Below, piece after piece: positions 27,898 to 53,011 of a stretch of 64,000 bases of DNA (the stretch's first letter is position 1; every line of letters begins with the position of its first letter). Below the pieces are notes generated by a model, which saw only the letters and a list, made by a program, of their open reading frames with translations, made no database searches and was not told the DNA's origin. The stretch is from contig CAWUHX010000036.1 of NCBI GenBank assembly GCA_963922205.1, forward strand, positions 248,001-312,000, read 5' to 3'. A program made the translations under genes and the position numbers. The stretch comes from Romanomermis culicivorax. Lineage: Eukaryota; Nematoda; Enoplea; Mermithida; Mermithidae.

Positions 27898-28270
27898 CTA
27901 AGAATTGCGGAAATAAAAATACGTGTGAGTAGAGGATCAAAAAAGAATAGCACTAATCACAAAAAAAATGATTACGTATCCATCTCTCCTGAGACACTTT
28001 CACTTGATAAACTTTCCTCTCATAAAAGCATTATCGATTAGAACAAACGGATAAAAATAACTAAATCAGTAGAGCTTCATTGCATCAAGCGCAGCAAGTT
28101 CCCAAGCACAATACAGCACAGCTGATTAAGCGTATAAACTCACAATGATCGACGCCTTCGTACTATGTACTCAAATCAAAGTGTCATCGTTTTGAGTTAT
28201 TGAATATTTTGAAATGATTTATCAAAATGAACCTTATTTCGATTATGTATCTGAAATATGTTCAAAAATA
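27898..28270. promoter_or_regulatory. MCU upstream region ending at the Gypsy tandem insertion
   Basis: 373 bp between the acceptor-like site before the MCU ATG and the left LTR edge. No TATA or clear upstream exon is visible on the minus strand. 'aata' at 28267-28270 is the left copy of the target duplication. Either the MCU promoter is here, or a 5' UTR exon lies to the right of the 24-kb insertion. Confidence 0.35.
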
Positions 28271-28847
28271 TGTCGTGCGTGAGAAAATAGAAGAGAGTAG
28301 ATGACGACGCAAAGCTGTGTAGCTTGACGATTTATCGCGCGTTTTAGAAGAGACGTACGGAACGTAGAAGAGCGTGCGGAACGCTGTAGACGAAACACCC
28401 GGAGTGTTTATCGGATTTACGCAACGATAGTCGAACGCAGGAGATTGACGGGCTCGTAGAGAGCGCTGTGTCAATTTTATCCAGGGATCTTCGCTCAGGT
28501 CGTCAAAGGTTTTCGGATGCCGAAACTCACGCCGTATATTCTTAACCGCTTAGGAGTTTCACTCGCTCACTCAAACTATTTTCCAAATAGTTTGACTCAA
28601 CTTAGAACACACTTTTCGCACAATTTACTAATGTACAAAAGCCGCCACACACTTTTTCAGACAAACGCCAAAACACAACCGTTTTGCTACAGTACAACGC
28701 AAAAACTAATGAAAAACACTTTCATAATTTCTTCACGTCATAGCCACGCCTCTTCGGTGGTCTCGTCGCGATCTTTCCAATTCAAACTTGCCGATCTTTT
28801 TCGCAAACGACACGAGCTTTACAAATATGTCAAATCGCTCCACAACA
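28271..28847 (-). repeat. Gypsy-A left LTR (3' LTR of copy A)
   Basis: 577 bp, TGTCGTGCG...CCACAACA on the plus strand (TG...CA termini on either strand). No differences from the middle LTR were seen. Confidence 0.93.
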
Positions 28848-28861
28848 CTCCTCCCCCTTTC
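28848..28861 (-). other. Polypurine tract, Gypsy-A copy A
   Basis: GAAAGGGGGAGGAG on the minus strand directly before the LTR start TGTTGTGG: the plus-strand primer used in reverse transcription. Confidence 0.75.
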
Positions 28862-29194
28862 GTTCTAAATCGCGTCAAGCGATTTCGACGTGTCGTGGTG
28901 AATTGGCGTATTGATCGAATGAGAGCGTTTAGCTCGTTTTAGGCAAGTTTCTTTCGACAGTTTGTCATTCTCGTTTTTCTACTCTGCGGCACATACTACA
29001 CAAACAAAGAAAATTTAAACAATGTTATCACAAAAAATGTTACGACACAAAGTGATGAGCAAATGAAAACTAGTATTTAGCACTGAGAAATTTAAAATTT
29101 TTAGAGATTTCAAAAAAAAGATTCTAGTGGAAAAAGAATAAACTAGTGAAAGGAAAAGAGATGCGTTAGCATCGTGATACTTATCCATTTTGAC

Positions 29195-30340
29195 TCATTT
29201 CGGCGGAAATCCGCGACCTTTAGGCAAAACTTTGACCGGGGTTTTGCTCGCTTTCAGAATACCCGGCGGGGGCATCTGTATTGATTGACTCGTTGTCGGT
29301 GCTCGCGGGGCCAAAGCTCGCTGCGCGGCTCCAAGTGAGGTTCGCACTCCAACCATCGACGGTTGAGTTGTCGCGGTCGTTGCCATAGTGATGATCGGGG
29401 CCGGTGTCATTTGGTACTTTGGCGGTACGGCCGCTTTTGCCTTTGCCATCGCGTCTTTCTTTTTCTTTTCTTCGGCTCGCTTGTCCATTTCGATTTGATA
29501 CTCGCGATGTATATCTCAGATGATAGCCTTCCTTTCTTCAGTTGCCGGATAATTCGGGGCTCGCGTGTCGGTAAGGCATTGCAAGATGTAGCGTAGAGCC
29601 ATCGAATACGAATTATCGGTAGTTTTGTAGTCGTAGGCTTGTCTGGCGTGGAAGAGGAACAGCGTGAGCTGTGTTATCACGATTGCGTTTTCAGCGCCGT
29701 AATACTTATAGTAATCGCACATCCAACTTAGAAGAACTGCAGTGATTTCTTCTGTGCAATGTGGATCTCGTCGCAAATATCGCGCTTGGAAATAGTCAGG
29801 AAAGTCCTGCGCTATTTGTTGCGAAGCCGCGGTGGCTTGACGTAAAATTACGGGATCGAAATCCAAATGAGCACCATTGAAGTAATTAATGATAATTACT
29901 TCGTCGGTCGTTCTCGGTTGGATTTGAGCCGTAATAGGTGCTGTAGGTACGCTAGGGTACTGTTCTTCCGGCGGTGTACCCTGTCTACCGTGTCGTCGAT
30001 GCGCAACTTTGTATTCTCGGACAGTTCGTTGCGACTTTTGTTGTTCGCTAGCCGTTTCCGCTTGCTGCGACGTTGTTGGTTCGTCGATCATCGGTTCGGA
30101 GCCAGCCGTCGAAGGCTGTTGGCTCTCTAACTGTTCTTTTTGCAATTGATCGCGTTTCAAGGCACTAGCCCATTCAATTCTTTTTTGTAGATCTTTTGAT
30201 TCGCTAGGATGTTCTCGTCTATAATCGCGATCTCGGTGAAATTTTCTAGGACGCTCGTTCGACGCGTATTCACCATGTCGATATTTTCGACTGTCATAAT
30301 CATCGCTTTCCTTGCGAGCAGTAGACTGTGAGGGTCGTTC
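29195..30340 (-). pseudogene. Gypsy-A copy A ORF3 C-terminal continuation, with a second TGA
   Basis: The frame of the exonuclease ORF continues past the TGA: an Arg/Ser/Asp/His-rich stretch, 'KRDQLQKEQLESQQ', then a globular helical part (about 29520-29900, 'WMCDYYKYYGAENA', 'LTLFLFHARQAYDY'), another TGA at 29516-29518, and a Lys/Glu/Ala then Pro-rich tail ending at 29195. That all three pieces share one frame argues for one ancestral protein of about 1,320 residues with two nonsense changes. The function of this part is unknown. Confidence 0.65.
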
Positions 30341-33006
30341 TCATGACCGTGATTCGGTTTCTTTTCGTTCTCTACTACGAGTGTCTTCTCGTGATTCGCC
30401 TCGTTTTTTAGATGGAGGCACGTAATTAGGATCTTCTGGGTGCGTGTCCAGATAATCCTGTATTGTGCGCAGCTGTTTATCGATAGCATTTCGTCTGCGA
30501 AACAGTGAAAATTGATACGCTCTGACGTTGCGAATGGGTACACTGTGTTCGTCGCACAATCGGTCGTCTTTCACTTCCAAAACTGGTGTGGCAGTTTCGG
30601 TACTTATCGGAGTAGAGGTGTCTTCCTCGTTTTTCTTTTGTATTCGGTATCGCCTAGGTATTATTTTCGGAGGTACCATTTTCGTTTTGTCTTCCTCTAC
30701 GTCTTCCATTCGCGAAACATCGTACATCGATGAGGTTTTTACCAACGAGGCTACCTCTTGTATGTTTCGTTTCTTTATTTCCTCCGATTCCAATTTGAAT
30801 GTACTGCTCGACAAGTTTTTGGATAGCGGAGTCAACGAGGACGTTGTTTTAGTCGTCGTTATAGGTGCAGTAGTATCAGCTGTGGATACGTCTTCTTCTT
30901 CGCTTTCGAGTTGTATGACGTCGGATTCGGACGGTAGTTCCGTTTTTACCGTGAACGATTCTTCGGCGGTTTGTTTGAGCAACGAATCGACGGCCATCGC
31001 CGTTTCCGCATCGAATTCGGTATCCGCCGTGGATTGTGTAGGAGCCTGTGTAGGCGTTTTCGTGGGACTTTCTCCCGACAATATAGCGGTTGGTATTACG
31101 GGCAAATTCGAACTCATTGTTAGAGTATGACTCGGCGGAAAGCAAATGAGTTGCTCGCATTTTCTTGACGTTAAAATCGGCGAATTGTATGAAAAGTAGT
31201 AGTAGGGGTTTTCCCTATACTTCTTTTTCGTTACTAGATCGGTTTCGTTGGAGACAGGAAAACTGTCATTTTTGAATATGATTTGACGCATAAAATATCG
31301 ATTCGCGTATATCAGTCGTTTACTGTCGCTGCGATTCTTTTCGTTGTAGGGCAAGCGACTAGTCCATTCCATTAGTTCGAATTCGAACGTGCCATCTCGT
31401 TTCACCCAATTTTGCTCGCAATTAAGATCTATGTCGATACTGTCACTTTTTGATAACAGTTTCGAGATCTCATTTTTGAGGATGGCTCGCAATTCCATTT
31501 CGGAATGTGGGGAGCAGACGTGAGCGACTAGCGGCATAGTTCCGCGAACAGCATTCATCCATTGATGATGGTTCGGAACTGAGTAGAGCGGCGTTAGAGC
31601 CGGCTTTTCGGCGATCTGATGGTCGCATTTTATTTCGTAGATAGGCCACGTTTCTGGAGGATCGTAGGTAGTGAACGGATTGTTTACGACTAGTTCGAAA
31701 TTTATTTGTTTCGCTTCGTCGCTCGTCACCATGTTTTGGTCTATTTCGGAAAGAAATAGCAAAGACATAGGTGCGCCGACTTCGTGATGGATGCTAACTA
31801 CGTCATTGGAGCGTAAAGCTCGCTCTATAACTCTCGCGCAAACAGCGGCGTCGTCGTACGGTTCAGTTTTTCCGTCGTCGGTCAACGAAGACGTGTTATT
31901 TTTGCTACCTTTTATCGTCGGTAGTTTTGTCGGATGCATTTTCAATCCGAGTGGTTTAGTGGAGTGCTCCACGTTTATGTGATTATACGTGCAGTATCGC
32001 ATGTTCGGGACGTTATAGTCGTAGTATATGATTCGATTTAACGCCAGGATTTTGTCGTGCATGATCGCATGCAGCATACTTTTCGAGAGCGTCGGATCTA
32101 TGATGCCGAAAGCGCCCTTTTTATCGCCTTCGCGATCGACGTTTGCGTTATCATACAAATTTTGCGTAGCGATGTGTATGTATTCGGGCGGCAAGAAATC
32201 GTGCGGGAAGATTTGTATACTGTCGTAGACGCTGTCTACGAAGCTGTAGCGCCTGTACGCTAAAAACATTAGTATCGGATAGTACGCATCTAGAATCGAA
32301 TACGTCAACACTTGATCGTCGGGTTTGCCTGCTTGGGCGATGCGATCGTTCGCTTGCGGAAAATACAACGTGTAGCGTTCTACGTCTAGCGCGAACGCGT
32401 CGGCAACGATTCCTTTCAATTTTTTATTTTCGGGGCACAAGCCGATCAGACGAGCTCTCTCCCACTTTTCGGGTGAACGTTCGATATTTTCTAGTATAAT
32501 CTGGACGTCGACCAGTATACTAGGCGCGAGCACGTTAGAGTGCGTTTTTCGAGCGTCGGATGAGTAAAACTCTCGTCCGTGCATGTCTTTGAGACATTTC
32601 CAATCGTCGGCTTGATCGAATCCGATTACGATTGTTTTAGGGGCCGACACGAACTCGTAGAAGGCCGTCCAGTCCTCGGGTGTCGCCGCTAAGGCGTCGA
32701 ACATTATAGTGTACCCAGTGGGAAAACCCAGCTGGACGAACTGAGCGACGTGGGTCGCGTTCTGGTTCACTATATTCATCTTCGTTTTCTTGTGTATATA
32801 TAGTTGAGTAGTCGAGATCTTTTCGACGTCGAATCCGACTAGCACGTGGCCGCGGAAGTTCGGTTTTGCGTATGCCGATAGGGCGCCTTTCAACTCTCCG
32901 CTCTCAACGTATTGAGGGTCGCGTAGCACGTTGAGCGGTCTTGCATATACCGTCTCGAACCAACGTTCGAATTCCGTGATTCGGATCATTCTTTTGATAT
33001 TGTATT
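30341..33006 (-). CDS. Gypsy-A copy A ORF3: DEDDy 3'-5' exonuclease-domain protein
   Basis: Numbering from the first Met of this exon (32989; 882 codons to TGA). Residues about 45-240 match the RNase D/WRN/MUT-7 exonuclease fold. Motif I is 'VGFDVEK' (Asp54, Glu56), motif II '[14 protein letters not shown]' (Asp128), then 'LVDVQIILE', and motif III '[11 protein letters not shown]' (Tyr230, Asp234), the Y-x3-D form. All metal-binding acids and the Tyr are present, so the ancestral protein was probably an active nuclease. Residues 250-620 are globular of unknown type; 630-880 are Ser/Thr/Glu-rich, then Arg-rich. There is no signal peptide or transmembrane segment, so it is not an envelope. It lies downstream of integrase on the same strand. 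The TGA at 30341-30343 is followed by more of the same frame. Confidence 0.8.
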
Positions 33007-33219
33007 CTAAAAAATATCATAAAATTTCGATTAATTTCTGTGAGATTTAGTTTCGCATGGAAACGTCACTCATTCGAATCGCGGCGTGCAAATCTTCTAG
33101 CGAAGTTACCGTGACTCCCATTTTCTTATCGACGGATCGATACTTTACTCTTCCCAGGGGAAGTGAAACCCGGAGTTTCTTTTTAGAGACTTTAGTCTAT
33201 ATGGCAGTGCAGAACTTAC

Positions 33220-33382
33220 CATCAGCAAAGAAAAATCTGTCGTCTTGACGGTACTGCTTTTTCTGATACGCCACGTATCGGTCTTGGTTGTTAAAAGATT
33301 TTCGAAATATCGGCGGCGGATTTATTAGCGACGTAGATATCGCCGATTCTTGCGACGTTGTCGCCTCCGATTCACTCGCCAT
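33220..33382 (-). CDS. Gypsy-A copy A ORF3 exon 1 (spliced)
   Basis: ATG at 33382, 54 codons plus one base, then a strong donor G|GTAAGTTC. Unspliced, the frame ends six codons on. Encodes a Ser/Thr/Glu-rich start followed by 'RKSFNNQDRYVAYQKKQYRQ', basic. It joins in phase to 33006, skipping 213 nt whose end is 'gatattttttag'. Such splicing resembles how env-type third ORFs are expressed in other Gypsy elements. Confidence 0.6.
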
Positions 33383-33889: not shown

Positions 33890-36800
33890 TTAAGGACCGT
33901 TGTCTTCCGTTTCTAAGATTGCCGATGCCATGCGAGGCATGTATGGCTTTACGCGAGAAAGTGAGACTTTCTGAGATTGTCCGGGACAATCTAAACTATC
34001 GATCGTTATGACGTTTTTCAAAATTTCGGAGTTTTCGACCACTACGAAGGGTCCGATATAGTCTTTATCGATTTTAGTTGCTTTTTTCTTGTTAAGCAAC
34101 AGTATGAGATCGTTTAGATCGTATTTCTGCTCTTTCGCTTTCTTATCGAAGTATCGTTTATGCGATTCGGACGCGTTTTTTAAGTTTTCGAAAACTTCGT
34201 TATATAGCGTTAGTTGCGCTTGCGTGAAGATGTACTGATACGCATCGTAGTTTAGCGGTAACGTTAGACTTTTCGCGCAGTCGAAATCTATAGCGATTCT
34301 GGGTTCGTACCCTCGCAAAAGTCGAAACGGAGAGAAGTGAGTAGCTGTGTGAGGAACAGCGTTATAGGCGAAAGTCGCGAAAGGTAGATATCGTTCCCAA
34401 TTATCGGGGTCTTCAGCGGTGAATTTCTTGAGTTGCGAAATCAACGTTTGGTTGAATCTTTCGACCATTCCATTACATTGCGGATGATACGCAGTGGTAT
34501 TGATTTTCTGAACTTTTAGAAGCTTCGCGATGTCTTTCATCAAGTTTGAAGTGAATCCTGAACCCTGATCTGATAGTAGATGTTTCGGGCTGCCATGAAC
34601 CAAAACTACGTTGTTTACGAAACTTTCGACTATAGTGGCTGCTTTTTGATCCGGAATCAAATGAGCGCTTACCCATTTAGTGAAGTAGTCTTGAAATACG
34701 ATGACGTATGATCTTTTCTCACCCAAAGGGGATATGTTTACTATGTCGGTCGCGACGATTTCAAATGGATATTTTGGTTGGATCGGCATCAAAGGAGGTG
34801 GTTTCGGCAACTGAGAAGTTGTTTGTTGACATGTTTTACATGTTTTGATCCACTTTATTATCGATTCTTCCATTTTCGGCCACCAGAAATGCTGACGAAT
34901 CATTGCTGTAGTGTGTCTATGACCTTGATGGCTCAAAATCTTTGCGCCATGAAATTGATACAAAACACTTTCAATCAGAGTAGTTGGAACTACTATCGCG
35001 GAAGCTGTGTTAGCTTGTTTCGACGTTCGGTACACTATCTCGTTTTCGGTATGGAAAGCAGATGAAATTGTAGAGATTTGCTTTTGTTCTAAGACTTTTA
35101 TCAACTTCGCGATGTACGGATCTTTTCTTTGAGCTTCTCTGATTTCTTCCGGCGATTCTTTAGTTACTAGCCGTTTCTCAGGCTGTTGGAAATCTTCTTC
35201 AAACTTCGGCACTTTATTTCTTTCTTCTTTTTGCATCATTGACCTTGTTATGGCTGCAGCGACAGTCTTTTTTCCTTCGCGAAACGTCGGTCTGAATATT
35301 TCGTTTGTAACTTCTTCACTAGTCTTTGGCTTTACTTTAGTGCGAGGTTCATTTCGTGATAGAAAATCAGCACAAGCATTTTCTTTGCCTTTTACATATT
35401 CAACACGATAGTCGTAGTCTTGTAGCTTTATTGCGAAGTTCTGAAGTCGCGAATTTCGATGTTTTTCTTCTTTGATCCATTGCAAAGGTTTATGGTCAGT
35501 TCTGACCGTTACTTTTTGACCATAGACATAGTGTCTGTACCATCGGAAAGCTTCTACAATTGCTAGACATTCGCCCTCAGTCGTACTGTAGCGGGTTTCT
35601 ACGTCAGACAGAACTCTACTATTATACGCGATGACCCATTGATCAGTTTCGTTTTCTTGATACAAAATTGCACCGATAGCAGTTGTGCTAGCATCAGTTT
35701 GGATGATGAATTTCGATTTTTCGTCGTTATAGACAGGATATCGCAAAAAAGGAGTCGAGGTTAGAGATGTTTTAATCTCGTTAAAAGCTGTACGATGTTC
35801 TTCGCTTATCTCATATTTCGCATTTTTTCATAGTAGTTGATAGAGCGGTCGCGAAAGAGTGGCAAGATTCAGTATGAATCGTCTACACCATTGGACTAGG
35901 CCCAAAAAACTTTGAAGATCTTTGACCATTTTTGGCATTTCATAGTTTACAATCGCGGAGACCTTTTCGGGATCAGGCGAGATTCCATTTTCGCTTAGCA
36001 AATGACCAAGAAATTTTACTTGTTTCGGCACGAAATCGCATTTATCAGGTCTTAGCGTTAGATTCGCGTCACGGAGAGCATCAAAGATCAGTTGAATATG
36101 TGCTAGATGATCGTTATACGTTTGCGAAAAGACTATGATATCGTCGATATAGACCAAACAGATTTTCCAGATGTATGGATGCAGGATCCGTTCCATTAGT
36201 CTTTGAAATTCAGCGGGAGCGTTTTTCAAACCAAAAGGTAGAACTTTGAAACGAAACAAGCCTTCTTGACTGACAAAAGTAGTTTTATCGCCTGAAGCGA
36301 TGTCTAAAGGGATTTGCCAGTACCCTGCTTTTAAGTCTAGAGTTGAGAAAAATCGTGCATTGCCTAAAGCATCTAGATAGTCATCGATTCTCAGAATCGG
36401 AAACTTATCGTTAGGAGTAACTTCATTTATACCTCTATAATCGACTACGGGTCGCCAACTTCCATCCTTTTCGTTACCAGAAACATAGGTGCAGCCCACG
36501 GTGATCGCGAAGGTTCGATGAGGCCTTTTTCTAGCATTTCTTGGATTTTCTGACGAACCATTGGTCTTTGTTCAATCGGGGCACGATAGTAGTGTTTCGC
36601 GACTGGTTTAGCATCACCGGTGTCTATAGAGACCGTTAACTCGTGAGTGAGAGTAGGCTGATCTCCAGGGAGACTGAAAACATCACGATACTGCTTGAAG
36701 ACTTCGATAGCGATTTTTCTATCTTCGTCGTCGATATTCGACTTTTCGGTCATTTTCTCGAGAGCGTGTTGAAGTTTTTCTTCTTCGGACATGGTTGACT

Positions 36801-37089
36801 GGTCTTTAACCAACGTTGCTGGCTCATAGTCTTCTTCATGATCGCTTAGCAACGGGACGGTCATTTTCGATTCTTCGAGTTTGAATTTAACCTCAGCGAT
36901 GAGCTGGTTAGGTTCTAGATGGATACCGTTCGCACTATTATTGACGAATAATAGTGAACATTTACCCTCAGTTATGTTGATTATCGCTAGTTCGATCGGA
37001 TATTCGCAGTTTTCTTTTCCAAAGTTCACGGGCTGAACTATGACGCTTTTGAAGCTTTAGTTTGTGAAAGGGAAGATTTTCCCGTTAAC
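33890..37089 (-). pseudogene. Gypsy-A copy A pol (RT-RNase H-integrase), broken
   Basis: After the gag-protease TAG the same frame meets a TAA, then is open over the RT N-terminus (to 36445). A one-base loss in an A-run near 36460-36475, inside the conserved block around 'APMFLVTK', moves RT into another frame (36499-35828). RT shows 'LVYIDDIIVF' and 'FGLKNAPAEFQRLM'. A TGA at 35828-35830 then splits RT from RNase H-integrase (35827-33890). RNase H has '[10 protein letters not shown]' and 'TEGECLAI'; integrase has an HHCC finger ('CKTCQQ'), the D,D-35-E triad ('LSDQGSGF', 'NGMVERFNQ') and a C-terminal 'IGPFVVVE'. In copy A the usually invariant PIPRID motif reads PILRID. It cannot make a full polyprotein as assembled. 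Confidence 0.9.
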
Positions 37090-39849
37090 CTAAGTCTGAC
37101 AATTCGGTTCTACGTGGCATGACGAGATATTCAAAATCGGTAGCGATCTATCGATTTTCACGATTTGCGTTTGACTTTGTCCCGTAGAAGTATTTGAAAA
37201 TACTTCATCGTAGGGCGCTTTTTCGATCGGTTTCAAAACTAGATTTAGTTCTTGTTGAACGTCTCCGATTCTGATGAAATTTTCGCGAAAGTTTATTACG
37301 GCTCGAACGCTCAGATGCACTAGGAAATCGGTTCCTAGGAGGCATTGCTCTCCTGTAGTAGGTAGTATCCAGCATCGTACTAGATGCGTTCCGAAAGATG
37401 AACTGATTTTGAAGATTATCGGACCTCGGGCATCGACGATAGCACCGTCGGCTACTTTTATCTGCGCGGATGTTTCTAACGTATCATAGTCAATTCCCAA
37501 AGAGCGTTGAGCTAGACATGAGGAAATGACTGAGCACTGAGCACCGGTATCGATTAACGCTTTCGTTTTGGTTTTTCCAATTTCGGCATCGATATGAAAA
37601 GCACGAGTAGGAGCGTATAAGCTCAGAAGTTTGATATCTTTTTGCGAACATTCTTCGATTCGACACACGCTAGATCTCGCGATCCACGGTTCAGTAGGTT
37701 TTTCGATTGTGAAATCAGTGATTCCGGGAGCAACCAAGAAGTTTGTAGCTTTAGAAGCTTCTGTCGGTTCAAGCATGTTAGCTGTACTAGTTGTCGGTTT
37801 CATCGTAACGAAAGTTTTAGGTGAGTTAATCACCATTTTGGTTTCTGATGGCAAAACTTGTTGCGAAGATTTCGGAGAAGTTAGCTGAGTCTGTATAGAC
37901 TGTGAGTTATTCATCGGATAGTAGTAATGCTTTTCGATTATCTTTTCTTGTCGGGTTTCGGAATCGCAGAGAGAAATGTTTGCAACATCTCTCTGGTAGT
38001 TTCGATTATCGCGATTGAAGAATCGGTTATTTCGATCGAAATTTTGATTCTGATTGAGCGTGTAGTTACGCGTATTTTGTTGAAAACGAGGACGCCAATT
38101 ATGGTTATTTTGCCATTGATGATTCGGTTGCTGTTGACGAGGCTGAGAAGCCTGTGGTTTCAACTGATAGCATTCGGAGCTGTCGTGTTTACACTGACCA
38201 TGATAGGTGCAATATTTTACCGGTCGTTCACGTGACTGATTTCGTTGGAAATTTCGATTCTGAGAGAAATCCCGTATAGGAATGTTTTCTCTATTCCGAA
38301 AGTTCGGACTCGTTCCGCGATCGAATCGCGATCTTTGATTTTCGAAATTATTAGCGTTTTGCGAATTTTCTCGGATTCTGAACTTTTCTAGGACTCGTTT
38401 TATGCTTTCTTCCAATTCTTTCGTCTTCGCTAGAGTCGAATTTTCTTGAAACCTCACGCTATTTCGCTGTCTAGAGTCATCTCTGTTTCGGGATTGAGAA
38501 TTATCTCTGAAACGAGGTTTCGAATCATCTCTGAAACGCGATTGAGCTGGTTGCTCTTCCGACGGATTTTCGAGTGTATTAACCAGTATAGGTTGTTCTA
38601 CTCTAACAGTTGACTGTTTATTCGCACGCTGAATTTTCTGAACTTTCACGACGGATATAGCTAAGTCGGTGATTGTTTCTAGAGTACTCGCGTCAATCGA
38701 GACTCTGTAAATTTCCGGCATTTTCCAAAGAAAAGTTGTGATAACTTTTCTATGGTGATACTGAGCACTTCTGTCATAGTACAGTAGATGTACGTAGGTA
38801 CTGATTCGATTTAAGAAAGCTGACGGATCTTCAGTTTCAAAAGGAGCGATAGACTGGAGCTCGCATTGGAGCGTATCTTGGTCGCAATTCGGTGCATTCA
38901 TACACATCAAAATCTGTTTCGCTTCATCGTAGGATCGGACATCTCGTATGGTGTTTAGAGCACCATCGCAAGTCAAGCGACGCAACGTGTGAAGTTTCAC
39001 ATACTCAGATGCATCAAGGCCGAACTCGTTTTCGAGGGCAATGAAGAATTTCAAAACTTGTTGATTTCGGGTCGAATTATCTAGTTTTTGCGGCGCTATC
39101 TTTTTACAGATAGTCTTAATTCTCGTTTCGTCATCGGCGAAAGATCTATGCACCTGAGAAGGTGGGATAGACGGGAAGTTTATCTGAGAGTTTAGCGCGT
39201 TTAGCGCGTTAGAGCGATCAAACGTTTGTGTCGGGATGATTAGATCATCATCATCGTCGATTATACTACGAAAACTAAGTTGACTTTTTCGATCGCTAGT
39301 GACGTTTTTCGGTTTAGTCGATTTCTGAGACTGAGCGTAAGAGCTCGTAGGTCTCGCGATATTTTCGATTTCGGGAACCTTCGGTTTCATCAGCTCTTCT
39401 TTCTGAGCTCTCATCGCTTCGATTTCGGTTTTAAACTCATCGAGAAGTTTTCGCTGTTGAGTCGCGATAGTTACGATTTCGCTTAACGCGTTAGTAGGGT
39501 CGCCACGAAAATTTATCATTTCGGCATCGCATTTTTGCATTACGTCGATATACGCGTCATTATCGAAGATTTTTCGAGGATCGGTATCCTTCGGTTTCGG
39601 TTTTAGAAAGTTGAATTTTCGGTTTTCGACGATTTTTGGAGATAGAGATCGCGAGGTTTTTCGCGTTTTTAACGGAGCAGACGTTTCCGGTAGATCGAAA
39701 TTACGCTTATCTGCTTCGTAGAGAAGCGGTAGATTCGCGTTTTCGCAGTCGAAATTTTCGATTTCTCGATCATCGGGATTCGCTAGTTTCTTATAGAAAC
39801 CTTTTTTGTAACCGAGCGCAGTAGAGCGACGCATGCAGTTTTCCTCCAT
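37090..39849 (-). CDS. Gypsy-A copy A gag-protease (919 aa)
   Basis: One open frame. The N-terminal half is basic and low in hydrophobics. A retroviral-type capsid-like region follows (about 260-420), then an Arg/Asn/Gln-rich tract. A zinc-knuckle-like 'CTYHGQCKHDSSEC' lies at about 555-570. The C-terminal part is an aspartic protease with 'ALIDTGAQCSVIS' (catalytic DTG) and the flap/closing motif 'CLLGTDFL'. It would form the particle and process the polyprotein. It ends with TAG; pol continues in the same frame past TAG and a second stop (TAA). Since protease usually travels with pol, either stop suppression or decay must be assumed. The equivalent frame of copy B looks the same. Confidence 0.88.
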   Translation of the reverse strand: MEENCMRRSTALGYKKGFYKKLANPDDREIENFDCENANLPLLYEADKRNFDLPETSAPLKTRKTSRSLSPKIVENRKFNFLKPKPKDTDPRKIFDNDAYIDVMQKCDAEMINFRGDPTNALSEIVTIATQQRKLLDEFKTEIEAMRAQKEELMKPKVPEIENIARPTSSYAQSQKSTKPKNVTSDRKSQLSFRSIIDDDDDLIIPTQTFDRSNALNALNSQINFPSIPPSQVHRSFADDETRIKTICKKIAPQKLDNSTRNQQVLKFFIALENEFGLDASEYVKLHTLRRLTCDGALNTIRDVRSYDEAKQILMCMNAPNCDQDTLQCELQSIAPFETEDPSAFLNRISTYVHLLYYDRSAQYHHRKVITTFLWKMPEIYRVSIDASTLETITDLAISVVKVQKIQRANKQSTVRVEQPILVNTLENPSEEQPAQSRFRDDSKPRFRDNSQSRNRDDSRQRNSVRFQENSTLAKTKELEESIKRVLEKFRIRENSQNANNFENQRSRFDRGTSPNFRNRENIPIRDFSQNRNFQRNQSRERPVKYCTYHGQCKHDSSECYQLKPQASQPRQQQPNHQWQNNHNWRPRFQQNTRNYTLNQNQNFDRNNRFFNRDNRNYQRDVANISLCDSETRQEKIIEKHYYYPMNNSQSIQTQLTSPKSSQQVLPSETKMVINSPKTFVTMKPTTSTANMLEPTEASKATNFLVAPGITDFTIEKPTEPWIARSSVCRIEECSQKDIKLLSLYAPTRAFHIDAEIGKTKTKALIDTGAQCSVISSCLAQRSLGIDYDTLETSAQIKVADGAIVDARGPIIFKISSSFGTHLVRCWILPTTGEQCLLGTDFLVHLSVRAVINFRENFIRIGDVQQELNLVLKPIEKAPYDEVFSNTSTGQSQTQIVKIDRSLPILNISSCHVEPNCQT

Positions 39850-39901
39850 TTTTCGGATTTTCGATTTTTCGCAAATTTCGGCGTTTCCTCAACCTTTAGA
39901 C

Positions 39902-39919
39902 GAGCTGGTACGGTCACCA
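39902..39919 (-). other. Primer-binding site, Gypsy-A copy A
   Basis: Same 18-mer as in copy B, adjacent to the middle LTR. Confidence 0.65.
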
Positions 39920-39924
39920 AATTA

Positions 39925-40501
39925 TGTCGTGCGTGAGAAAATAGAAGAGAGTAGATGACGACGCAAAGCTGTGTAGCTTGACGATTTATCGCGCGTTTTA
40001 GAAGAGACGTACGGAACGTAGAAGAGCGTGCGGAACGCTGTAGACGAAACACCCGGAGTGTTTATCGGATTTACGCAACGATAGTCGAACGCAGGAGATT
40101 GACGGGCTCGTAGAGAGCGCTGTGTCAATTTTATCCAGGGATCTTCGCTCAGGTCGTCAAAGGTTTTCGGATGCCGAAACTCACGCCGTATATTCTTAAC
40201 CGCTTAGGAGTTTCACTCGCTCACTCAAACTATTTTCCAAATAGTTTGACTCAACTTAGAACACACTTTTCGCACAATTTACTAATGTACAAAAGCCGCC
40301 ACACACTTTTTCAGACAAACGCCAAAACACAACCGTTTTGCTACAGTACAACGCAAAAACTAATGAAAAACACTTTCATAATTTCTTCACGTCATAGCCA
40401 CGCCTCTTCGGTGGTCTCGTCGCGATCTTTCCAATTCAAACTTGCCGATCTTTTTCGCAAACGACACGAGCTTTACAAATATGTCAAATCGCTCCACAAC
40501 A
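39925..40501 (-). repeat. Gypsy-A middle LTR (shared)
   Basis: 577 bp, serving as 5' LTR of copy A and 3' LTR of copy B. Its right edge matches the left LTR, not the right LTR, as expected if it arose by crossover between the two original LTRs. Confidence 0.93.
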
Positions 40502-41994: not shown

Positions 41995-44660
41995 TCATGA
42001 CCGTGATTCGGTTTCTTTTCGTTCTCTACTACGAGTGTCTTCTCGTGATTCGCCTCGTTTTTTAGATGGAGGCACGTAATTAGGATCTTCTGGGTGCGTG
42101 TCCAGATAATCCTGTATTGTGCGCAGCTGTTTATCGATAGCATTTCGTCTGCGAAACAGTGAAAATTGATACGCTCTGACGTTGCGAATGGGTACACTGT
42201 GTTCGTCGCACAATCGGTCGTCTTTCACTTCCAAAACTGGTGTGGCAGTTTCGGTACTTATCGGAGTAGAGGTGTCTTCCTCGTTTTTCTTTTGTATTCG
42301 GTATCGCCTAGGTATTATTTTCGGAGGTACCATTTTCGTTTTGTCTTCCTCTACGTCTTCCATTTGCGAAACATCGTACATCGATGAGGTTTTTACCAAC
42401 GAGGCTACCTCTTGTATGTTTCGTTTCTTTATTTCCTCCGATTCCAATTTGAATGTACTGCTCGACAAGTTTTTGGATAGCGGAGTCAACGAGGACGTTG
42501 TTTTAGTCGTCGTTATAGGTGCAGTAGTATCAGCTGTGGATACGTCTTCTTCTTCGCTTTCGAGTTGTATGACGTCGGATTCGGACGGTAGTTCCGTTTT
42601 TACCGTGAACGATTCTTCGGCGGTTTGTTTGAGCAACGAATCGACGGCCATCGCCGTTTCCGCATCGAATTCGGTATCCGCCGTGGATTGTGTAGGAGCC
42701 TGTGTAGGCGTTTTCGTGGGACTTTCTCCCGACAATATAGCGGTTGGTATTACGGGCAAATTCGAACTCATTGTTAGAGTATGACTCGGCGGAAAGCAAA
42801 TGAGTTGCTCGCATTTTCTTGACGTTAAAATCGGCGAATTGTATGAAAAGTAGTAGTAGGGGTTTTCCCTATACTTCTTTTTCGTTACTAGATCGGTTTC
42901 GTTGGAGACAGGAAAACTGTCATTTTTGAATATGATTTGACGCATAAAATATCGATTCGCGTATATCAGTCGTTTACTGTCGCTGCGATTCTTTTCGTTG
43001 TAGGGCAAGCGACTAGTCCATTCCATTAGTTCGAATTCGAACGTGCCATCTCGTTTCACCCAATTTTGCTCGCAATTAAGATCTATGTCGATACTGTCAC
43101 TTTTTGATAACAGTTTCGAGATCTCATTTTTGAGGATGGCTCGCAATTCCATTTCGGAATGTGGGGAGCAGACGTGAGCGACTAGCGGCATAGTTCCGCG
43201 AACAGCATTCATCCATTGATGATGGTTCGGAACTGAGTAGAGCGGCGTTAGAGCCGGCTTTTCGGCGATCTGATGGTCGCATTTTATTTCGTAGATAGGC
43301 CACGTTTCTGGAGGACCGTAGGTAGTGAACGGATTGTTTACGACTAGTTCGAAATTTATTTGTTTCGCTTCGTCGCTCGTCACCATGTTTTGGTCTATTT
43401 CGGAAAGAAATAGCAAAGACATAGGTGCGCCGACTTCGTGATGGATGCTAACTACGTCATTGGAGCGTAAAGCTCGCTCTATAACTCTCGCGCAAACAGC
43501 GGCGTCGTCGTACGGTTCAGTTTTTCCGTCGTCGGTCAACGAAGACGTGTTATTTTTGCTACCTTTTATCGTCGGTAGTTTTGTCGGATGCATTTTCAAT
43601 CCGAGTGGTTTAGTGGAGTGCTCCACGTTTATGTGATTATACGTGCAGTATCGCATGTTCGGGACGTTATAGTCGTAGTATATGATTCGATTTAACGCCA
43701 GGATTTTGTCGTGCATGATCGCATGCAGCATACTTTTCGAGAGCGTCGGATCTATGATGCCGAAAGCGCCCTTTTTATCGCCTTCGCGATCGACGTTTGC
43801 GTTATCATACAAATTTTGCGTAGCGATGTGTATGTATTCGGGCGGCAAGAAATCGTGCGGGAAGATTTGTATACTGTCGTAGACGCTGTCTACGAAGCTG
43901 TAGCGCCTGTACGCTAAAAACATTAGTATCGGATAGTACGCATCTAGAATCGAATACGTCAACACTTGATCGTCGGGTTTGCCTGCTTGGGCGATGCGAT
44001 CGTTCGCTTGCGGAAAATACAACGTGTAGCGTTCTACGTCTAGCGCGAACGCGTCGGCAACGATTCCTTTCAATTTTTTATTTTCGGGGCACAAGCCGAT
44101 CAGACGAGCTCTCTCCCACTTTTCGGGTGAACGTTCGATATTTTCTAGTATAATCTGGACGTCGACCAGTATACTAGGCGCGAGCACGTTAGAGTGCGTT
44201 TTTCGAGCGTCGGATGAGTAAAACTCTCGTCCGTGCATGTCTTTGAGACATTTCCAATCGTCGGCTTGATCGAATCCGATTACGATTGTTTTAGGGGCCG
44301 ACACGAACTCGTAGAAGGCCGTCCAGTCCTCGGGTGTCGCCGCTAAGGCGTCGAACATTATAGTGTACCCAGTGGGAAAACCCAGCTGGACGAACTGAGC
44401 GACGTGGGTCGCGTTCTGGTTCACTATATTCATCTTCGTTTTCTTGTGTATATATAGTTGAGTAGTCGAGATCTTTTCGACGTCGAATCCGACTAGCACG
44501 TGGCCGCGGAAGTTCGGTTTTGCGTATGCCGATAGGGCGCCTTTCAACTCTCCGCTCTCAACGTATTGAGGGTCGCGTAGCACGTTGAGCGGTCTTGCAT
44601 ATACCGTCTCGAACCAACGTTCGAATTCCGTGATTCGGATCATTCTTTTGATATTGTATT
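41995..44660 (-). CDS. Gypsy-A copy B ORF3: DEDDy exonuclease-domain protein
   Basis: As in copy A, with all catalytic residues kept and the same terminating TGA (41995-41997). Two residues differ: a Gly for Asp at the site 43316 and a Gln for Arg at 42365. Neither is in the nuclease motifs. Confidence 0.8.
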
Positions 44661-45543: not shown

Positions 45544-48500
45544 TTAAGGACCGTTGTCTTCCGTTTCTAAGATTGCCGATGCCATGCGAGGCATGTATGG
45601 CTTTACGCGAGAAAGTGAGACTTTCTGAGATTGTCCGGGACAATCTAAACTATCGATCGTTATGACGTTTTTCAAAATTTCGGAGTTTTCGACCACTACG
45701 AAGGGTCCGATATAGTCTTTATCGATTTTAGTTGCTTTTTTCTTGTTAAGCAACAGTATGAGATCGTTTAGATCGTATTTCTGCTCTTTCGCTTTCTTAT
45801 CGAAGTATCGTTTATGCGATTCGGACGCGTTTTTTAAGTTTTCGAAAACTTCGTTATATAGCGTTAGTTGCGCTTGCGTGAAGATGTACTGATACGCATC
45901 GTAGTTTAGCGGTAACGTTAGACTTTTCGCGCAGTCGAAATCTATAGCGATTCTGGGTTCGTACCCTCGCAAAAGTCGAAACGGAGAGAAGTGAGTAGCT
46001 GTGTGAGGAACAGCGTTATAGGCGAAAGTCGCGAAAGGTAGATATCGTTCCCAATTATCGGGGTCTTCAGCGGTGAATTTCTTGAGTTGCGAAATCAACG
46101 TTTGGTTGAATCTTTCGACCATTCCATTACATTGCGGATGATACGCAGTGGTATTGATTTTCTGAACTTTTAGAAGCTTCGCGATGTCTTTCATCAAGTT
46201 TGAAGTGAATCCTGAACCCTGATCTGATAGTAGATGTTTCGGGCTGCCATGAACCAAAACTACGTTGTTTACGAAACTTTCGACTATAGTGGCTGCTTTT
46301 TGATCCGGAATCAAATGAGCGCTTACCCATTTAGTGAAGTAGTCTTGAAATACGATGACGTATGATCTTTTCTCACCCAAAGGGGATATGTTTACTATGT
46401 CGGTCGCGACGATTTCAAATGGATATTTTGGTTGGATCGGCATCAAAGGAGGTGGTTTCGGCAACTGAGAAGTTGTTTGTTGACATGTTTTACATGTTTT
46501 GATCCACTTTATTATCGATTCTTCCATTTTCGGCCACCAGAAATGCTGACGAATCATTGCTGTAGTGTGTCTATGACCTTGATGGCTCAAAATCTTTGCG
46601 CCATGAAATTGATACAAAACACTTTCAATCAGAGTAGTTGGAACTACTATCGCGGAAGCTGTGTTAGCTTGTTTCGACGTTCGGTACACTATCTCGTTTT
46701 CGGTATGGAAAGCAGATGAAATTGTAGAGATTTGCTTTTGTTCTAAGACTTTTATCAACTTCGCGATGTACGGATCTTTTCTTTGAGCTTCTCTGATTTC
46801 TTCCGGCGATTCTTTAGTTACTAGCCGTTTCTCAGGCTGTTGGAAATCTTCTTCAAACTTCGGCACTTTATTTCTTTCTTCTTTTTGCATCATTGACCTT
46901 GTTATGGCTGCAGCGACAGTCTTTTTTCCTTCGCGAAACGTCGGTCTGAATATTTCGTTTGTAACTTCTTCACTAGTCTTTGGCTTTACTTTAGTGCGAG
47001 GTTCATTTCGTGATAGAAAATCAGCACAAGCATTTTCTTTGCCTTTTACATATTCAACACGATAGTCGTAGTCTTGTAGCTTTATTGCGAAGTTCTGAAG
47101 TCGCGAATTTCGATGTTTTTCTTCTTTGATCCATTGCAAAGGTTTATGGTCAGTTCTGACCGTTACTTTTTGACCATAGACATAGTGTCTGTACCATCGG
47201 AAAGCTTCTACAATTGCTAGACATTCGCCCTCAGTCGTACTGTAGCGGGTTTCTACGTCAGACAGAACTCTACTATTATACGCGATGACCCATTGATCAG
47301 TTTCGTTTTCTTGATACAAAATTGCACCGATAGCAGTTGTGCTAGCATCAGTTTGGATGATGAATTTCGATTTTTCGTCGTTATAGACAGGATATCGCAA
47401 AAAAGGAGTCGAGGTTAGAGATGTTTTAATCTCGTTAAAAGCTGTACGATGTTCTTCGCTTATCTCATATTTCGCATTTTTTCATAGTAGTTGATAGAGC
47501 GGTCGCGAAAGAGTGGCAAGATTCAGTATGAATCGTCTACACCATTGGACTAGGCCCAAAAAACTTTGAAGATCTTTGACCATTTTTGGCATTTCATAGT
47601 TTACAATCGCGGAGACCTTTTCGGGATCAGGCGAGATTCCATTTTCGCTTAGCAAATGACCAAGAAATTTTACTTGTTTCGGCACGAAATCGCATTTATC
47701 AGGTCTTAGCGTTAGATTCGCGTCACGGAGAGCATCAAAGATCAGTTGAATATGTGCTAGATGATCGTTATACGTTTGCGAAAAGACTATGATATCGTCG
47801 ATATAGACCAAACAGATTTTCCAGATGTATGGATGCAGGATCCGTTCCATTAGTCTTTGAAATTCAGCGGGAGCGTTTTTCAAACCAAAAGGTAGAACTT
47901 TGAAACGAAACAAGCCTTCTTGACTGACAAAAGTAGTTTTATCGCCTGAAGCGATGTCTAAAGGGATTTGCCAGTACCCTGCTTTTAAGTCTAGAGTTGA
48001 GAAAAATCGTGCATTGCCTAAAGCATCTAGATAGTCATCGATTCTCGGAATCGGAAACTTATCGTTAGGAGTAACTTCATTTATACCTCTATAATCGACT
48101 ACGGGTCGCCAACTTCCATCCTTTTCGTTACCAGAAACATAGGTGCAGCCCACGGTGATCGCGAAGGTTCGATGAGGCCTTTTTCTAGCATTTCTTGGAT
48201 TTTCTGACGAACCATTGGTCTTTGTTCAATCGGGGCACGATAGTAGTGTTTCGCGACTGGTTTAGCATCACCGGTGTCTATAGAGACCGTTAACTCGTGA
48301 GTGAGAGTAGGCTGATCTCCAGGGAGACTGAAAACATCACGATACTGCTTGAAGACTTCGATAGCGATTTTTCTATCTTCGTCGTCGATATTCGACTTTT
48401 CGGTCATTTTCTCGAGAGCGTGTTGAAGTTTTTCTTCTTCGGACATGGTTGACTGGTCTTTAACCAACGTTGCTGGCTCATAGTCTTCTTCATGATCGCT

Positions 48501-48743: not shown

Positions 48744-51503
48744 CTAAGTCTGACAATTCGGTTCTACGTGGCATGACGAGATATTCAAAATCGGTAGCGA
48801 TCTATCGATTTTCACGATTTGCGTTTGACTTTGTCCCGTAGAAGTATTTGAAAATACTTCATCGTAGGGCGCTTTTTCGATCGGTTTCAAAACTAGATTT
48901 AGTTCTTGTTGAACGTCTCCGATTCTGATGAAATTTTCGCGAAAGTTTATTACGGCTCGAACGCTCAGATGCACTAGGAAATCGGTTCCTAGGAGGCATT
49001 GCTCTCCTGTAGTAGGTAGTATCCAGCATCGTACTAGATGCGTTCCGAAAGATGAACTGATTTTGAAGATTATCGGACCTCGGGCATCGACGATAGCACC
49101 GTCGGCTACTTTTATCTGCGCGGATGTTTCTAACGTATCATAGTCAATTCCCAAAGAGCGTTGAGCTAGACATGAGGAAATGACTGAGCACTGAGCACCG
49201 GTATCGATTAACGCTTTCGTTTTGGTTTTTCCAATTTCGGCATCGATATGAAAAGCACGAGTAGGAGCGTATAAGCTCAGAAGTTTGATATCTTTTTGCG
49301 AACATTCTTCGATTCGACACACGCTAGATCTCGCGATCCACGGTTCAGTAGGTTTTTCGATTGTGAAATCAGTGATTCCGGGAGCAACCAAGAAGTTTGT
49401 AGCTTTAGAAGCTTCTGTCGGTTCAAGCATGTTAGCTGTACTAGTTGTCGGTTTCATCGTAACGAAAGTTTTAGGTGAGTTAATCACCATTTTGGTTTCT
49501 GATGGCAAAACTTGTTGCGAAGATTTCGGAGAAGTTAGCTGAGTCTGTATAGACTGTGAGTTATTCATCGGATAGTAGTAATGCTTTTCGATTATCTTTT
49601 CTTGTCGGGTTTCGGAATCGCAGAGAGAAATGTTTGCAACATCTCTCTGGTAGTTTCGATTATCGCGATTGAAGAATCGGTTATTTCGATCGAAATTTTG
49701 ATTCTGATTGAGCGTGTAGTTACGCGTATTTTGTTGAAAACGAGGACGCCAATTATGGTTATTTTGCCATTGATGATTCGGTTGCTGTTGACGAGGCTGA
49801 GAAGCCTGTGGTTTCAACTGATAGCATTCGGAGCTGTCGTGTTTACACTGACCATGATAGGTGCAATATTTTACCGGTCGTTCACGTGACTGATTTCGTT
49901 GGAAATTTCGATTCTGAGAGAAATCCCGTATAGGAATGTTTTCTCTATTCCGAAAGTTCGGACTCGTTCCGCGATCGAATCGCGATCTTTGATTTTCGAA
50001 ATTATTAGCGTTTTGCGAATTTTCTCGGATTCTGAACTTTTCTAGGACTCGTTTTATGCTTTCTTCCAATTCTTTCGTCTTCGCTAGAGTCGAATTTTCT
50101 TGAAACCTCACGCTATTTCGCTGTCTAGAGTCATCTCTGTTTCGGGATTGAGAATTATCTCTGAAACGAGGTTTCGAATCATCTCTGAAACGCGATTGAG
50201 CTGGTTGCTCTTCCGACGGATTTTCGAGTGTATTAACCAGTATAGGTTGTTCTACTCTAACAGTTGACTGTTTATTCGCACGCTGAATTTTCTGAACTTT
50301 CACGACGGATATAGCTAAGTCGGTGATTGTTTCTAGAGTACTCGCGTCAATCGAGACTCTGTAAATTTCCGGCATTTTCCAAAGAAAAGTTGTGATAACT
50401 TTTCTATGGTGATACTGAGCACTTCTGTCATAGTACAGTAGATGTACGTAGGTACTGATTCGATTTAAGAAAGCTGACGGATCTTCAGTTTCAAAAGGAG
50501 CGATAGACTGGAGCTCGCATTGGAGCGTATCTTGGTCGCAATTCGGTGCATTCATACACATCAAAATCTGTTTCGCTTCATCGTAGGATCGGACATCTCG
50601 TATGGTGTTTAGAGCACCATCGCAAGTCAAGCGACGCAACGTGTGAAGTTTCACATACTCAGATGCATCAAGGCCGAACTCGTTTTCGAGGGCAATGAAG
50701 AATTTCAAAACTTGTTGATTTCGGGTCGAATTATCTAGTTTTTGCGGCGCTATCTTTTTACAGATAGTCTTAATTCTCGTTTCGTCATCGGCGAAAGATC
50801 TATGCACCTGAGAAGGTGGGATAGACGGGAAGTTTATCTGAGAGTTTAGCGCGTTTAGCGCGTTAGAGCGATCAAACGTTTGTGTCGGGATGATTAGATC
50901 ATCATCATCGTCGATTATACTACGAAAACTAAGTTGACTTTTTCGATCGCTAGTGACGTTTTTCGGTTTAGTCGATTTCTGAGACTGAGCGTAAGAGCTC
51001 GTAGGTCTCGCGATATTTTCGATTTCGGGAACCTTCGGTTTCATCAGCTCTTCTTTCTGAGCTCTCATCGCTTCGATTTCGGTTTTAAACTCATCGAGAA
51101 GTTTTCGCTGTTGAGTCGCGATAGTTACGATTTCGCTTAACGCGTTAGTAGGGTCGCCACGAAAATTTATCATTTCGGCATCGCATTTTTGCATTACGTC
51201 GATATACGCGTCATTATCGAAGATTTTTCGAGGATCGGTATCCTTCGGTTTCGGTTTTAGAAAGTTGAATTTTCGGTTTTCGACGATTTTTGGAGATAGA
51301 GATCGCGAGGTTTTTCGCGTTTTTAACGGAGCAGACGTTTCCGGTAGATCGAAATTACGCTTATCTGCTTCGTAGAGAAGCGGTAGATTCGCGTTTTCGC
51401 AGTCGAAATTTTCGATTTCTCGATCATCGGGATTCGCTAGTTTCTTATAGAAACCTTTTTTGTAACCGAGCGCAGTAGAGCGACGCATGCAGTTTTCCTC
51501 CAT
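48744..51503 (-). CDS. Gypsy-A copy B gag-protease (919 aa)
   Basis: Counterpart of 37090-39849 in the second unit, no differences seen, with zinc knuckle and DTGA protease intact and the same TAG end. Lies just downstream of the right LTR and its primer-binding site. Confidence 0.88.
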   Translation of the reverse strand: MEENCMRRSTALGYKKGFYKKLANPDDREIENFDCENANLPLLYEADKRNFDLPETSAPLKTRKTSRSLSPKIVENRKFNFLKPKPKDTDPRKIFDNDAYIDVMQKCDAEMINFRGDPTNALSEIVTIATQQRKLLDEFKTEIEAMRAQKEELMKPKVPEIENIARPTSSYAQSQKSTKPKNVTSDRKSQLSFRSIIDDDDDLIIPTQTFDRSNALNALNSQINFPSIPPSQVHRSFADDETRIKTICKKIAPQKLDNSTRNQQVLKFFIALENEFGLDASEYVKLHTLRRLTCDGALNTIRDVRSYDEAKQILMCMNAPNCDQDTLQCELQSIAPFETEDPSAFLNRISTYVHLLYYDRSAQYHHRKVITTFLWKMPEIYRVSIDASTLETITDLAISVVKVQKIQRANKQSTVRVEQPILVNTLENPSEEQPAQSRFRDDSKPRFRDNSQSRNRDDSRQRNSVRFQENSTLAKTKELEESIKRVLEKFRIRENSQNANNFENQRSRFDRGTSPNFRNRENIPIRDFSQNRNFQRNQSRERPVKYCTYHGQCKHDSSECYQLKPQASQPRQQQPNHQWQNNHNWRPRFQQNTRNYTLNQNQNFDRNNRFFNRDNRNYQRDVANISLCDSETRQEKIIEKHYYYPMNNSQSIQTQLTSPKSSQQVLPSETKMVINSPKTFVTMKPTTSTANMLEPTEASKATNFLVAPGITDFTIEKPTEPWIARSSVCRIEECSQKDIKLLSLYAPTRAFHIDAEIGKTKTKALIDTGAQCSVISSCLAQRSLGIDYDTLETSAQIKVADGAIVDARGPIIFKISSSFGTHLVRCWILPTTGEQCLLGTDFLVHLSVRAVINFRENFIRIGDVQQELNLVLKPIEKAPYDEVFSNTSTGQSQTQIVKIDRSLPILNISSCHVEPNCQT

Positions 51504-51578: not shown

Positions 51579-52154
51579 TGTCGTGCGTGAGAAAATAGAA
51601 GAGAGTAGATGACGACGCAAAGCTGTGTAGCTTGACGATTTATCGCGCGTTTTAGAAGAGACGTACGGAACGTAGAAGAGCGTGCGGAACGCTGTAGACG
51701 AAACACCCGGAGTGTTTATCGGATTTACGCAACGATAGTCGAACGCAGGAGATTGACGGGCTCGTAGAGAGCGCTGTGTCAATTTTATCCAGGGATCTTC
51801 GCTCAGGTCGTCAAAGGTTTTCGGATGCCGAAACTCACGCCGTATATTCTTAACCGCTTAGGAGTTTCACTCGCTCACTCAAACTATTTTCCAAATAGTT
51901 TGACTCAACTTAGAACACACTTTTCGCACAATTTACTAATGTACAAAAGCCGCCACACACTTTTTCAGACAAACGCCAAAACACAACCGTTTTGCTACAG
52001 TACAACGCAAAAACTAATGAAAAACACTTTCATAATTTCTTCACGTTCTAGCCACGCCTCTTCGGTGGTCTCGTCGCGATCTTTCCAATTCAAACTTGCC
52101 GATCTTTTTCGCAAACGACACGAGCTTTACAAATACGTCAAATCGCTGACAACA
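51579..52154 (-). repeat. Gypsy-A right LTR (5' LTR of copy B)
   Basis: 576 bp. Differs from the other two at 52047-52048, 52136 and at the end (GCTGACAACA in place of GCTCCACAACA), all within its last 110 bp. Confidence 0.93.
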
Positions 52155-53011
52155 AATATACAAAATTGAGCAGCCCCAATTCGCGTAAAAAGCTCATGCA
52201 CATTCTATGGAAAACAAGTGTACTCACTACGCTACGTGTTTCGCGCGGAATCTTCCACCATTTGGCGAAAAGGATCAAAATCTTTTTCGCTACCTATTTT
52301 CGCAAAATTTTTTCCTCCTCAAAAGTACTCACACATGCTAGTTATGCTTTTTAGAGCTTATTGAAACATATTAAGATTCATGGTTTTCTTAGCACGGTGC
52401 TAATGAAGTTGGGCCCGCGCTTATGACAACTTTAGTCGTGCTAAGAATAAGTTATACATATCATGGAAAGTTAGCGGTCGTGCCAAAGGGATTCGTGCTA
52501 AAAAACTATGCTAAGAATAATAATGTTTATTGCACAACACAACAAGGAAGAAAAAGAAGAATATGAAAATCAAAACGTGAAAAAACGAAGCATCAGCATA
52601 CAGTGCGGGTATAAATGCGTGTCAATCGAATCGTGACGATAGAGTAGTATATTATGTTGTGCATGGTCAGAATGGCTAGTGCACTTACATTTGGCCAAAA
52701 TCAAATTTTTCTACTAAAGCTTTAAATATATGCTGCTGTTACTGGCGAAGAGTATCAGTTGAGGGCATTTGCTCAATTATGTTGACTGTTCTGTTTATAA
52801 ATCATAATTTTTAAAAAGCGTATATTGCCTTTACATACACGCTATATATACCTTACACGTTAAAAAACATGGAAAAAATTCAGTAGGCCATAATGTGCAT
52901 TAAGTACCAATTTTTTGTTAAAAACACCGATTTGGTGGGAAAAACAGTGATGCTATCGGTCGTGCTGACGATCGCGCCTCAGTTGGATTAGCAAACAATG
53001 ATCATTATAAT
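52155..53011. other. Unassigned region right of the Gypsy tandem
   Basis: Begins with the right target duplication aata. 52385-52520 carries repeats of 'gtgctaa' / 'ttagcac' in both orientations (for example 'cttagcacggtgctaa' and 'gtcgtgctaagaata'), the look of a DNA-transposon remnant. No gene is supported. Confidence 0.35.

Follow-up and report, generated by a model that had tools for sequence, protein, structure and literature searches.

Does a Ty3/gypsy retrotransposon carry its own 3'-5' exonuclease? The question is raised by a 64,000-nt stretch of contig CAWUHX010000036.1 (hereafter the window), in which a long open reading frame (ORF), here called ORF3, lies downstream of the integrase of a gypsy element bounded by long terminal repeats (LTRs). 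As the original prediction stated, this ORF stands on the same strand as integrase, and the span assigned to it, 29195-33382, takes in the whole ORF3 region with its predicted 5' exon. The parts of this region are:

33220..33382, minus strand, predicted ORF3 5' exon, 163 bases (54 codons plus 1 base)
33007..33219, minus strand, predicted ORF3 intron of 213 bp, ATG/GTAAGT ... TTTTTTAG
30341..32989, minus strand, ORF3 exon 2 from the ATG at 32989 to the first in-frame TGA (30343-30341), 882 aa
32225..32989, minus strand, ORF3 residues 1-255, DEDDy exonuclease-like domain with D54, E56, D129 (neighbour D128), Y230 and D234
29195..30340, minus strand, rest of the ORF3 frame, with a TGA at 29518-29516; the frame ends at 29197-29195

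We conclude that the element belongs to a high-copy Ty3/gypsy family whose third ORF probably specifies an accessory protein with an N-terminal DEDDy 3'-5' exonuclease domain of the RNase D/WRN/MUT-7 type. On the sequence evidence set out below, we give this reading a probability of about 0.78.

The evidence for the domain is stepwise. When the genome (359 Mb assembly) was searched with PF01612, 119 candidates were scored and 91 of them matched. The family of the window's element is referred to as family A; the matches include at least three other sets, here families B, C and D. Family B scores PF01612 at E 1.3e-10 and family C at E 1.1e-7 (32.3 bits, cut-off 23.6), while family D, with 22.8 bits, falls just below the cut-off. 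In PDB, family B matches the WRN exonuclease (E 5.7e-4); its matches to Mut-7 homologue and Rrp6 chains are weaker (E 0.026-0.035). The step from family A to family C was made with three programs: blastp aligned the two domains over 259-290 residues at 20% identity (E 7e-11 to 9e-8, four C loci), hmmsearch scored 24-32 bits, as compared to a maximum of 8.7 bits for shuffled sequences (2000 sequences, 1517 reported), and hhalign returned a probability of 92.7%. Chance resemblance is excluded because of this homology to family C, seen with blastp and, above the shuffles, with hmmsearch. By these steps the N-terminus of ORF3, though divergent, is homologous to DEDDy exonucleases, from family A via family C to PF01612.

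The D-x-E, D and Y-x3-D motifs of ORF3 occur in the expected order and in register with those of its relatives. In a MAFFT alignment of families A to D, residues D54, E56, D129 and D234 are in register throughout, and Y230 is so in A, B and C. The exceptions listed are L086 and L087: D54 is replaced by N at one C locus out of four (L086), and the single D locus lacks the motif III tyrosine. The residues named in the original prediction (D54, E56, D128, Y230 and D234) all stand where it placed them, but the conserved motif II aspartate, given there as residue 128, is residue 129 (the second D of ADDWKCL) by automatic alignment with the three related families.

Copies of the ORF are numerous. 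Searching the genome with the exonuclease domain gave 116 scored matches among 3309 first-look candidates; 76 of the 116 are free of stops within the match and 27 of these have the full 1273-codon ORF3 frame (the search tool's open-frame figure). ORF3 copies with an intact frame occur in this genome. The search for further copies between the same LTRs, which the original prediction had proposed, was productive. With 40 of 870 LTR candidates scored, LTR pairs spaced 11,637-11,668 bp and enclosing one ORF3 match were found on 9 other contigs, and a pair spaced 13,302 bp, also with one ORF3 match inside, on contig C10. From the end of the integrase match to the exon 2 ATG downstream of it, the distance is 904-911 bp at all 30 of the closest loci, two of which lie in the window. 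The DEDDy-type ORF is therefore downstream of integrase and inside an LTR pair.

The sequences of these copies show signs of purifying selection on ORF3. Loci were ranked by similarity to ORF3 residues 1-348, and 29 distinct loci were used (L010 was left out as a duplicate of L009), or 28 where L018 was omitted for a frame break. Variants present in two or more copies were scored as shared, the counts not being corrected for the tree. In codons 1-348 (29 loci), shared variants comprise 60 synonymous and 13 nonsynonymous changes (pN/pS 0.061) and singletons 45 and 31 (0.19); another five shared codons, each with multiple changes, were left out of the count. Nonsynonymous counts in this segment are biased low because the loci were ranked by it. 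Within codons 1-250 (28 loci) the shared changes are 34 synonymous and 2 nonsynonymous (pN/pS 0.017). Codons 349-848 and the 5' exon lie outside the query that ranked the loci. For the former (28 loci, summed segments) shared variants are 103 synonymous and 26 nonsynonymous (about 0.07), singletons 95 and 70 (about 0.21); for the latter (28 loci) the corresponding numbers are 9 and 3 (0.09), and 11 and 11 (0.27). The pattern fits selection during spread, since a shared variant traces back to a master copy, and among the singletons are changes that arose by decay once the element had inserted. Residues D54, E56, Y230 and D234 are intact at 30 of the 30 closest loci, and D129 at 29. Among 20 old copies fetched, 12 have stops and 4 of the 8 stop-free ones have lost E56.

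Counts were also made for family B. In nine copies picked as young, its exonuclease codons show 56 synonymous and 5 nonsynonymous shared changes (0.026), singletons amounting to 32 and 12 (0.11). When all 20 copies, decayed ones included, are considered, the figures are 186 and 53 for shared variants (0.082) and 64 and 117 for singletons (0.53). Constraint is weaker outside the exonuclease match (8 copies; 29 and 18 shared, 0.19). D-x-E is present in 18 of the 20 family B matches, the two misses (L063 and L064) having stops in the stretch read; the motif II aspartate and Y-x-x-L-D are found in all 20.

The ORF3 message is predicted to be spliced. The 5' exon, the intron and exon 2 preserve a single reading frame; none of the 29 distinct loci differs at the 5' splice site, and each has TTTTTTAG at the 3' site. 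These features suggest a spliced message made of a leader exon and exon 2. No domain is assigned to residues of about 256-610. Toward the C-terminus, residues 611-882 are rich in serine, threonine and charged residues; our guess is that this part could be a disordered region associated with ribonucleoprotein. A C-terminal domain common to families A and B was suspected by eye and discarded: the best phmmer score was 6.9 bits (others 4.0-4.1) with a shuffle maximum of 6.0, which is unconvincing.

How old is the association between the ORF and the element? At least three further gypsy families in this genome (B, C and D) carry DEDDy-like ORFs. In family B (L060-L079) the ORF reaches about 608 codons and has a clear PF01612 domain. 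Integrase was found upstream of the exonuclease ORF at four of five B loci (L060, L065, L067 and L073; not L062), in both C flanks (L088, L090) and in the one D flank (L089). By integrase identity, family A is closest to C (43-46%), and the B integrase of L073 is closest to D (71%); by exonuclease domain A likewise groups with C, and B with D at 32-34% identity. Since the integrase and exonuclease groupings agree, old inheritance is favoured over recent capture from the host. The data fit an old ORF that was inherited together with pol and lost in some lines. The family B upstream integrase itself looks diverged, L067 and L065 both lacking a Pfam rve match. On contig G000:C158, three PF01612 fragment matches (at 182213, 187991 and 193769) lie exactly 5778 bp apart, apparently as a tandem array. 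The window also holds a second gypsy element:

61428..64000, minus strand, W2, diverged and broken (reverse transcriptase, RNase H, integrase)

The W2 integrase is nearest to those of B and D (42-43% identity), and tblastn within the window detected no DEDDy ORF behind it.

A number of results weigh against the exonuclease reading, in addition to the ranking bias already given for residues 1-348. The window ORF3 protein was matched by no entry of Pfam, PF01612 included, or of NCBIfam, and no solved structure in PDB was matched by it, whether by sequence or by profile; only 3 of 16 family A copies touch PF01612, the best at E 0.06. Family C by sequence has no PDB match at E 5. Neither of the two profiles, A or C, picked up E. 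coli RNase D, included as a yardstick, at E 100, and hhalign comparisons of A with B (E 0.14) and of C with B (E 0.099) do not significantly join the A/C and B/D pairs; a single origin of all four families is therefore not established. Single-sequence AlphaFold2, run without an alignment, gave no usable model of ORF3 (pLDDT 31.8). At locus L028, residue 129 is N. Finally, same-strand LTR pairs on C23 (13,277 bp), C29 (7,380 bp) and C165 (4,463 bp) have no scored ORF3 match inside. Other searches were negative: the genome search with PF01612 has no row covering the window ORF3, a search of 5.8 billion proteins yielded 5218 candidates and none at E 0.01, and the 4 pattern stretches picked up in viral contigs were not confirmed.

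Could the domain have the fold of an exonuclease without the activity? A catalytically dead protein might serve as an RNA-binding platform, as is reported for Maelstrom and EXD1, and inactive DEDD folds are known in the piRNA pathway (PMC5408684, for which we rely here and below on excerpts). The loss of E56 in half of the stop-free old copies and the substitutions in the C and D loci noted above would agree with such a role. Against it, the catalytic set of five is complete at 29 of the 30 closest loci, and a fold that only binds need not retain it; family B likewise keeps its motifs. We consider a dead fold unlikely. Less probable by far, to the point of being nearly negligible, is that ORF3 is envelope-like and its exonuclease resemblance incidental. 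Errantiviruses are env-bearing gypsy elements in which a third ORF follows integrase, and both this position and a spliced leader exon like that predicted here are typical of env. ORF3 differs in lacking a strongly hydrophobic segment: with Kyte-Doolittle hydropathy as the measure, no dedicated membrane predictor being used, no 19-residue window reaches a mean of 1.6, and the maximum, 1.31, falls inside the exonuclease domain. Homology to family C, moreover, runs along that domain. As to the origin of the ORF, the original prediction envisaged that one element had captured a host exonuclease gene. The presence in the window of W2, a gypsy relative with no DEDDy ORF, would be in line with a recent event of this kind. 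This view does not sit well with the finding that at least four diverged gypsy families carry such an ORF, with integrase upstream at most loci examined, nor with the identical A-C and B-D pairing by exonuclease and by integrase; the low identity of A and C in the exonuclease domain, only 20%, also speaks for an old association. Recent capture thus appears improbable.

If ORF3 is indeed an accessory exonuclease, it would probably be translated from the spliced message, as env is in retroviruses, and the protein could be an active enzyme working on the 3' ends of RNA or cDNA and raising the spread of the element. Action in trans on RNA would be the likeliest. The enzyme might trim the element's own transcripts or cDNA ends; alternatively, it might degrade the small RNAs that silence the element, or their templates. 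Given activity, the odds between these two options are about even. Small-RNA silencing is strong in nematodes, the superfamily of ORF3 is that of MUT-7, and ORF3 is apart from pol. A mut-7-like role in silencing has already been raised for bdelloid elements (PMC5408684). These points make it possible, if rather doubtful, that the ORF3 protein counters host small-RNA silencing, for instance through trimming of small RNAs or of their templates, or through competition with a host factor that resembles MUT-7. More speculative is the broader proposal that several gypsy lineages in this genome have long carried the DEDDy ORF as a counter-defence, that is, as a trans-acting nuclease that erodes small-RNA silencing and is selected for family spread.

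The element in the window has the general anatomy expected of Ty3/gypsy, the assignment being based on Pfam matches and pairwise comparisons. Two aspects that the original prediction did not mention are a tandem duplication with three LTRs and the defective state of the window copies. Positions 28271-52154 (minus strand) correspond to one insertion with the structure LTR-body-LTR-body-LTR and a start-to-start period of 11,654 bp. Its parts other than those given above are:

28267..28270, target-site duplication AATA, left flank
28271..28847, minus strand, LTR1, 3' LTR of the left copy, 577 bp, identical to LTR2
28848..28860, minus strand, polypurine tract AAAGGGGGAGGAG adjoining the 3' LTR, read by eye
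33890..35746, minus strand, RNase H and integrase ORF, 618 aa (PF17917, PF17921, PF00665)
35828..37029, minus strand, reverse transcriptase region (PF00078, E 4.2e-36), with in-frame stops and a frame change in this copy
37090..39849, minus strand, gag-protease ORF, 919 aa (protease PF13975, E 9.5e-12)
39925..40501, minus strand, LTR2, common to both tandem copies, 577 bp
41995..44643, minus strand, second copy, ORF3 exon 2, 882 aa
44874..45036, minus strand, second copy, ORF3 5' exon (offset 11654)
45544..47400, minus strand, second copy, RNase H-integrase
48744..51503, minus strand, second copy, gag-protease
51579..52154, minus strand, LTR3, 5' LTR of the right copy, 576 bp; five columns differ from LTR1, including one 1-base gap
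52155..52158, target-site duplication AATA, right flank

The element shows the Ty3/gypsy hallmarks of TG...CA LTR ends, a polypurine tract and a short target-site duplication, and its domains lie inside the LTRs in gypsy order (protease, reverse transcriptase, RNase H, integrase). The AATA duplication is present at the outer ends of the array only. The two bodies (the sequences between LTRs) differ at six positions. Unequal recombination between LTRs is one way for an array of this kind to form; it may also be a duplication made in assembly. Both copies are defective; in the left one, pol has in-frame stops and a frame change and the ORF3 frame has TGA codons. The CpG observed/expected ratio is 1.66 in the element (28271-40500) and 1.06 in window positions 1-28000.

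Elsewhere in the window, isocitrate lyase exons are found at 1857-7832 on the plus strand (the 1857-2279 exon scoring below the Pfam cut-off), followed downstream by malate synthase exons at 13345-17199, also on the plus strand. Together these exons probably form one gene. A fused isocitrate lyase-malate synthase gene with the same order has been described in nematodes, and the two genes of a sea anemone have been discussed as possibly fused or adjacent (Kondrashov et al. 2006; PMC1630690, in excerpt). The exons in the window thus suggest that the host is a nematode. Positions 11078-11747 hold a 300-nt direct repeat, 97% identical at a spacing of 370. The exact 22-nt nematode spliced leader SL1 has 0 matches in the genome; if the host is a nematode, it may come from a group whose leader differs, or its leader genes may be missing from the assembly. 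A bdelloid host seems unlikely, given 0 matches to a rotifer spliced leader and the many copies of the element.

How does this ORF3 compare with known systems? Its superfamily relatives WRN, the MUT-7 homologue, Rrp6 and RNase D (PF01612) have the same order of motifs; family B directly matches WRN and, more weakly, the MUT-7 homologue and Rrp6, family C matches PF01612, and family A reaches none of these by direct search. In the literature, the arrangement is not without precedent, contrary to the original prediction, which knew of no described gypsy element of this type: Rodriguez, Kenefick and Arkhipova (2017; PMC5408684) reported DEDDy ORF3s in Juno1, Juno2, Vesta2 and Vesta5, LTR elements of bdelloid rotifers. 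DEDDy ORFs in LTR retrotransposons are mentioned later in passages of PMC5718144 and PMC6338049, the latter naming both Ustyantsev et al. 2017 and Rodriguez et al. as sources on accessory domains; the main text of PMC5348765, probably the Ustyantsev paper meant, contains neither "DnaQ" nor "exonuclease". Among the open-licence papers listed, we noticed no nematode gypsy element with such a DEDDy ORF, the one primary report being that on bdelloids. DEDDy ORFs are also carried by the Terminons and Athena Penelope-like retroelements (excerpts of PMC5408684 and PMC6431247), which differ in not being LTR elements and in having another class of polymerase.

Juno and Vesta are, by their description, the nearest parallel. 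There, as here, an LTR element has gag, pol and then a DEDDy-type ORF3. In the excerpts of PMC5408684, ORF3s are said to be typically expressed through spliced messages, and RNA 3'-end processing is raised as a role besides silencing. The differences are several. DEDD is changed to DEED in the bdelloid elements and is kept here. Juno, Vesta and TelKA have a dUTPase between protease and reverse transcriptase, while no dUTPase match was obtained in the Pfam search of the window proteins, a weak negative given that the region is broken in this copy. The same excerpts left open whether the ORF3s benefit the elements; there were few copies, and the variants examined, in other ORF types, looked neutral. 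Here, scored matches number more than 100, the ORF3 frame spans 1273 codons, such ORFs occur in at least four families and shared variants are mostly synonymous, so that selection on the ORF becomes measurable with power. Altogether, several features are new at the present locus: the host is probably a nematode, copies are numerous, the ORF shows signs of purifying selection and is long, with a leader exon that is predicted to be spliced to it, and the exonuclease and integrase relationships agree. Small-RNA silencing is well studied in nematodes, and a nuclease-based counter-defence could be tested in such a host.

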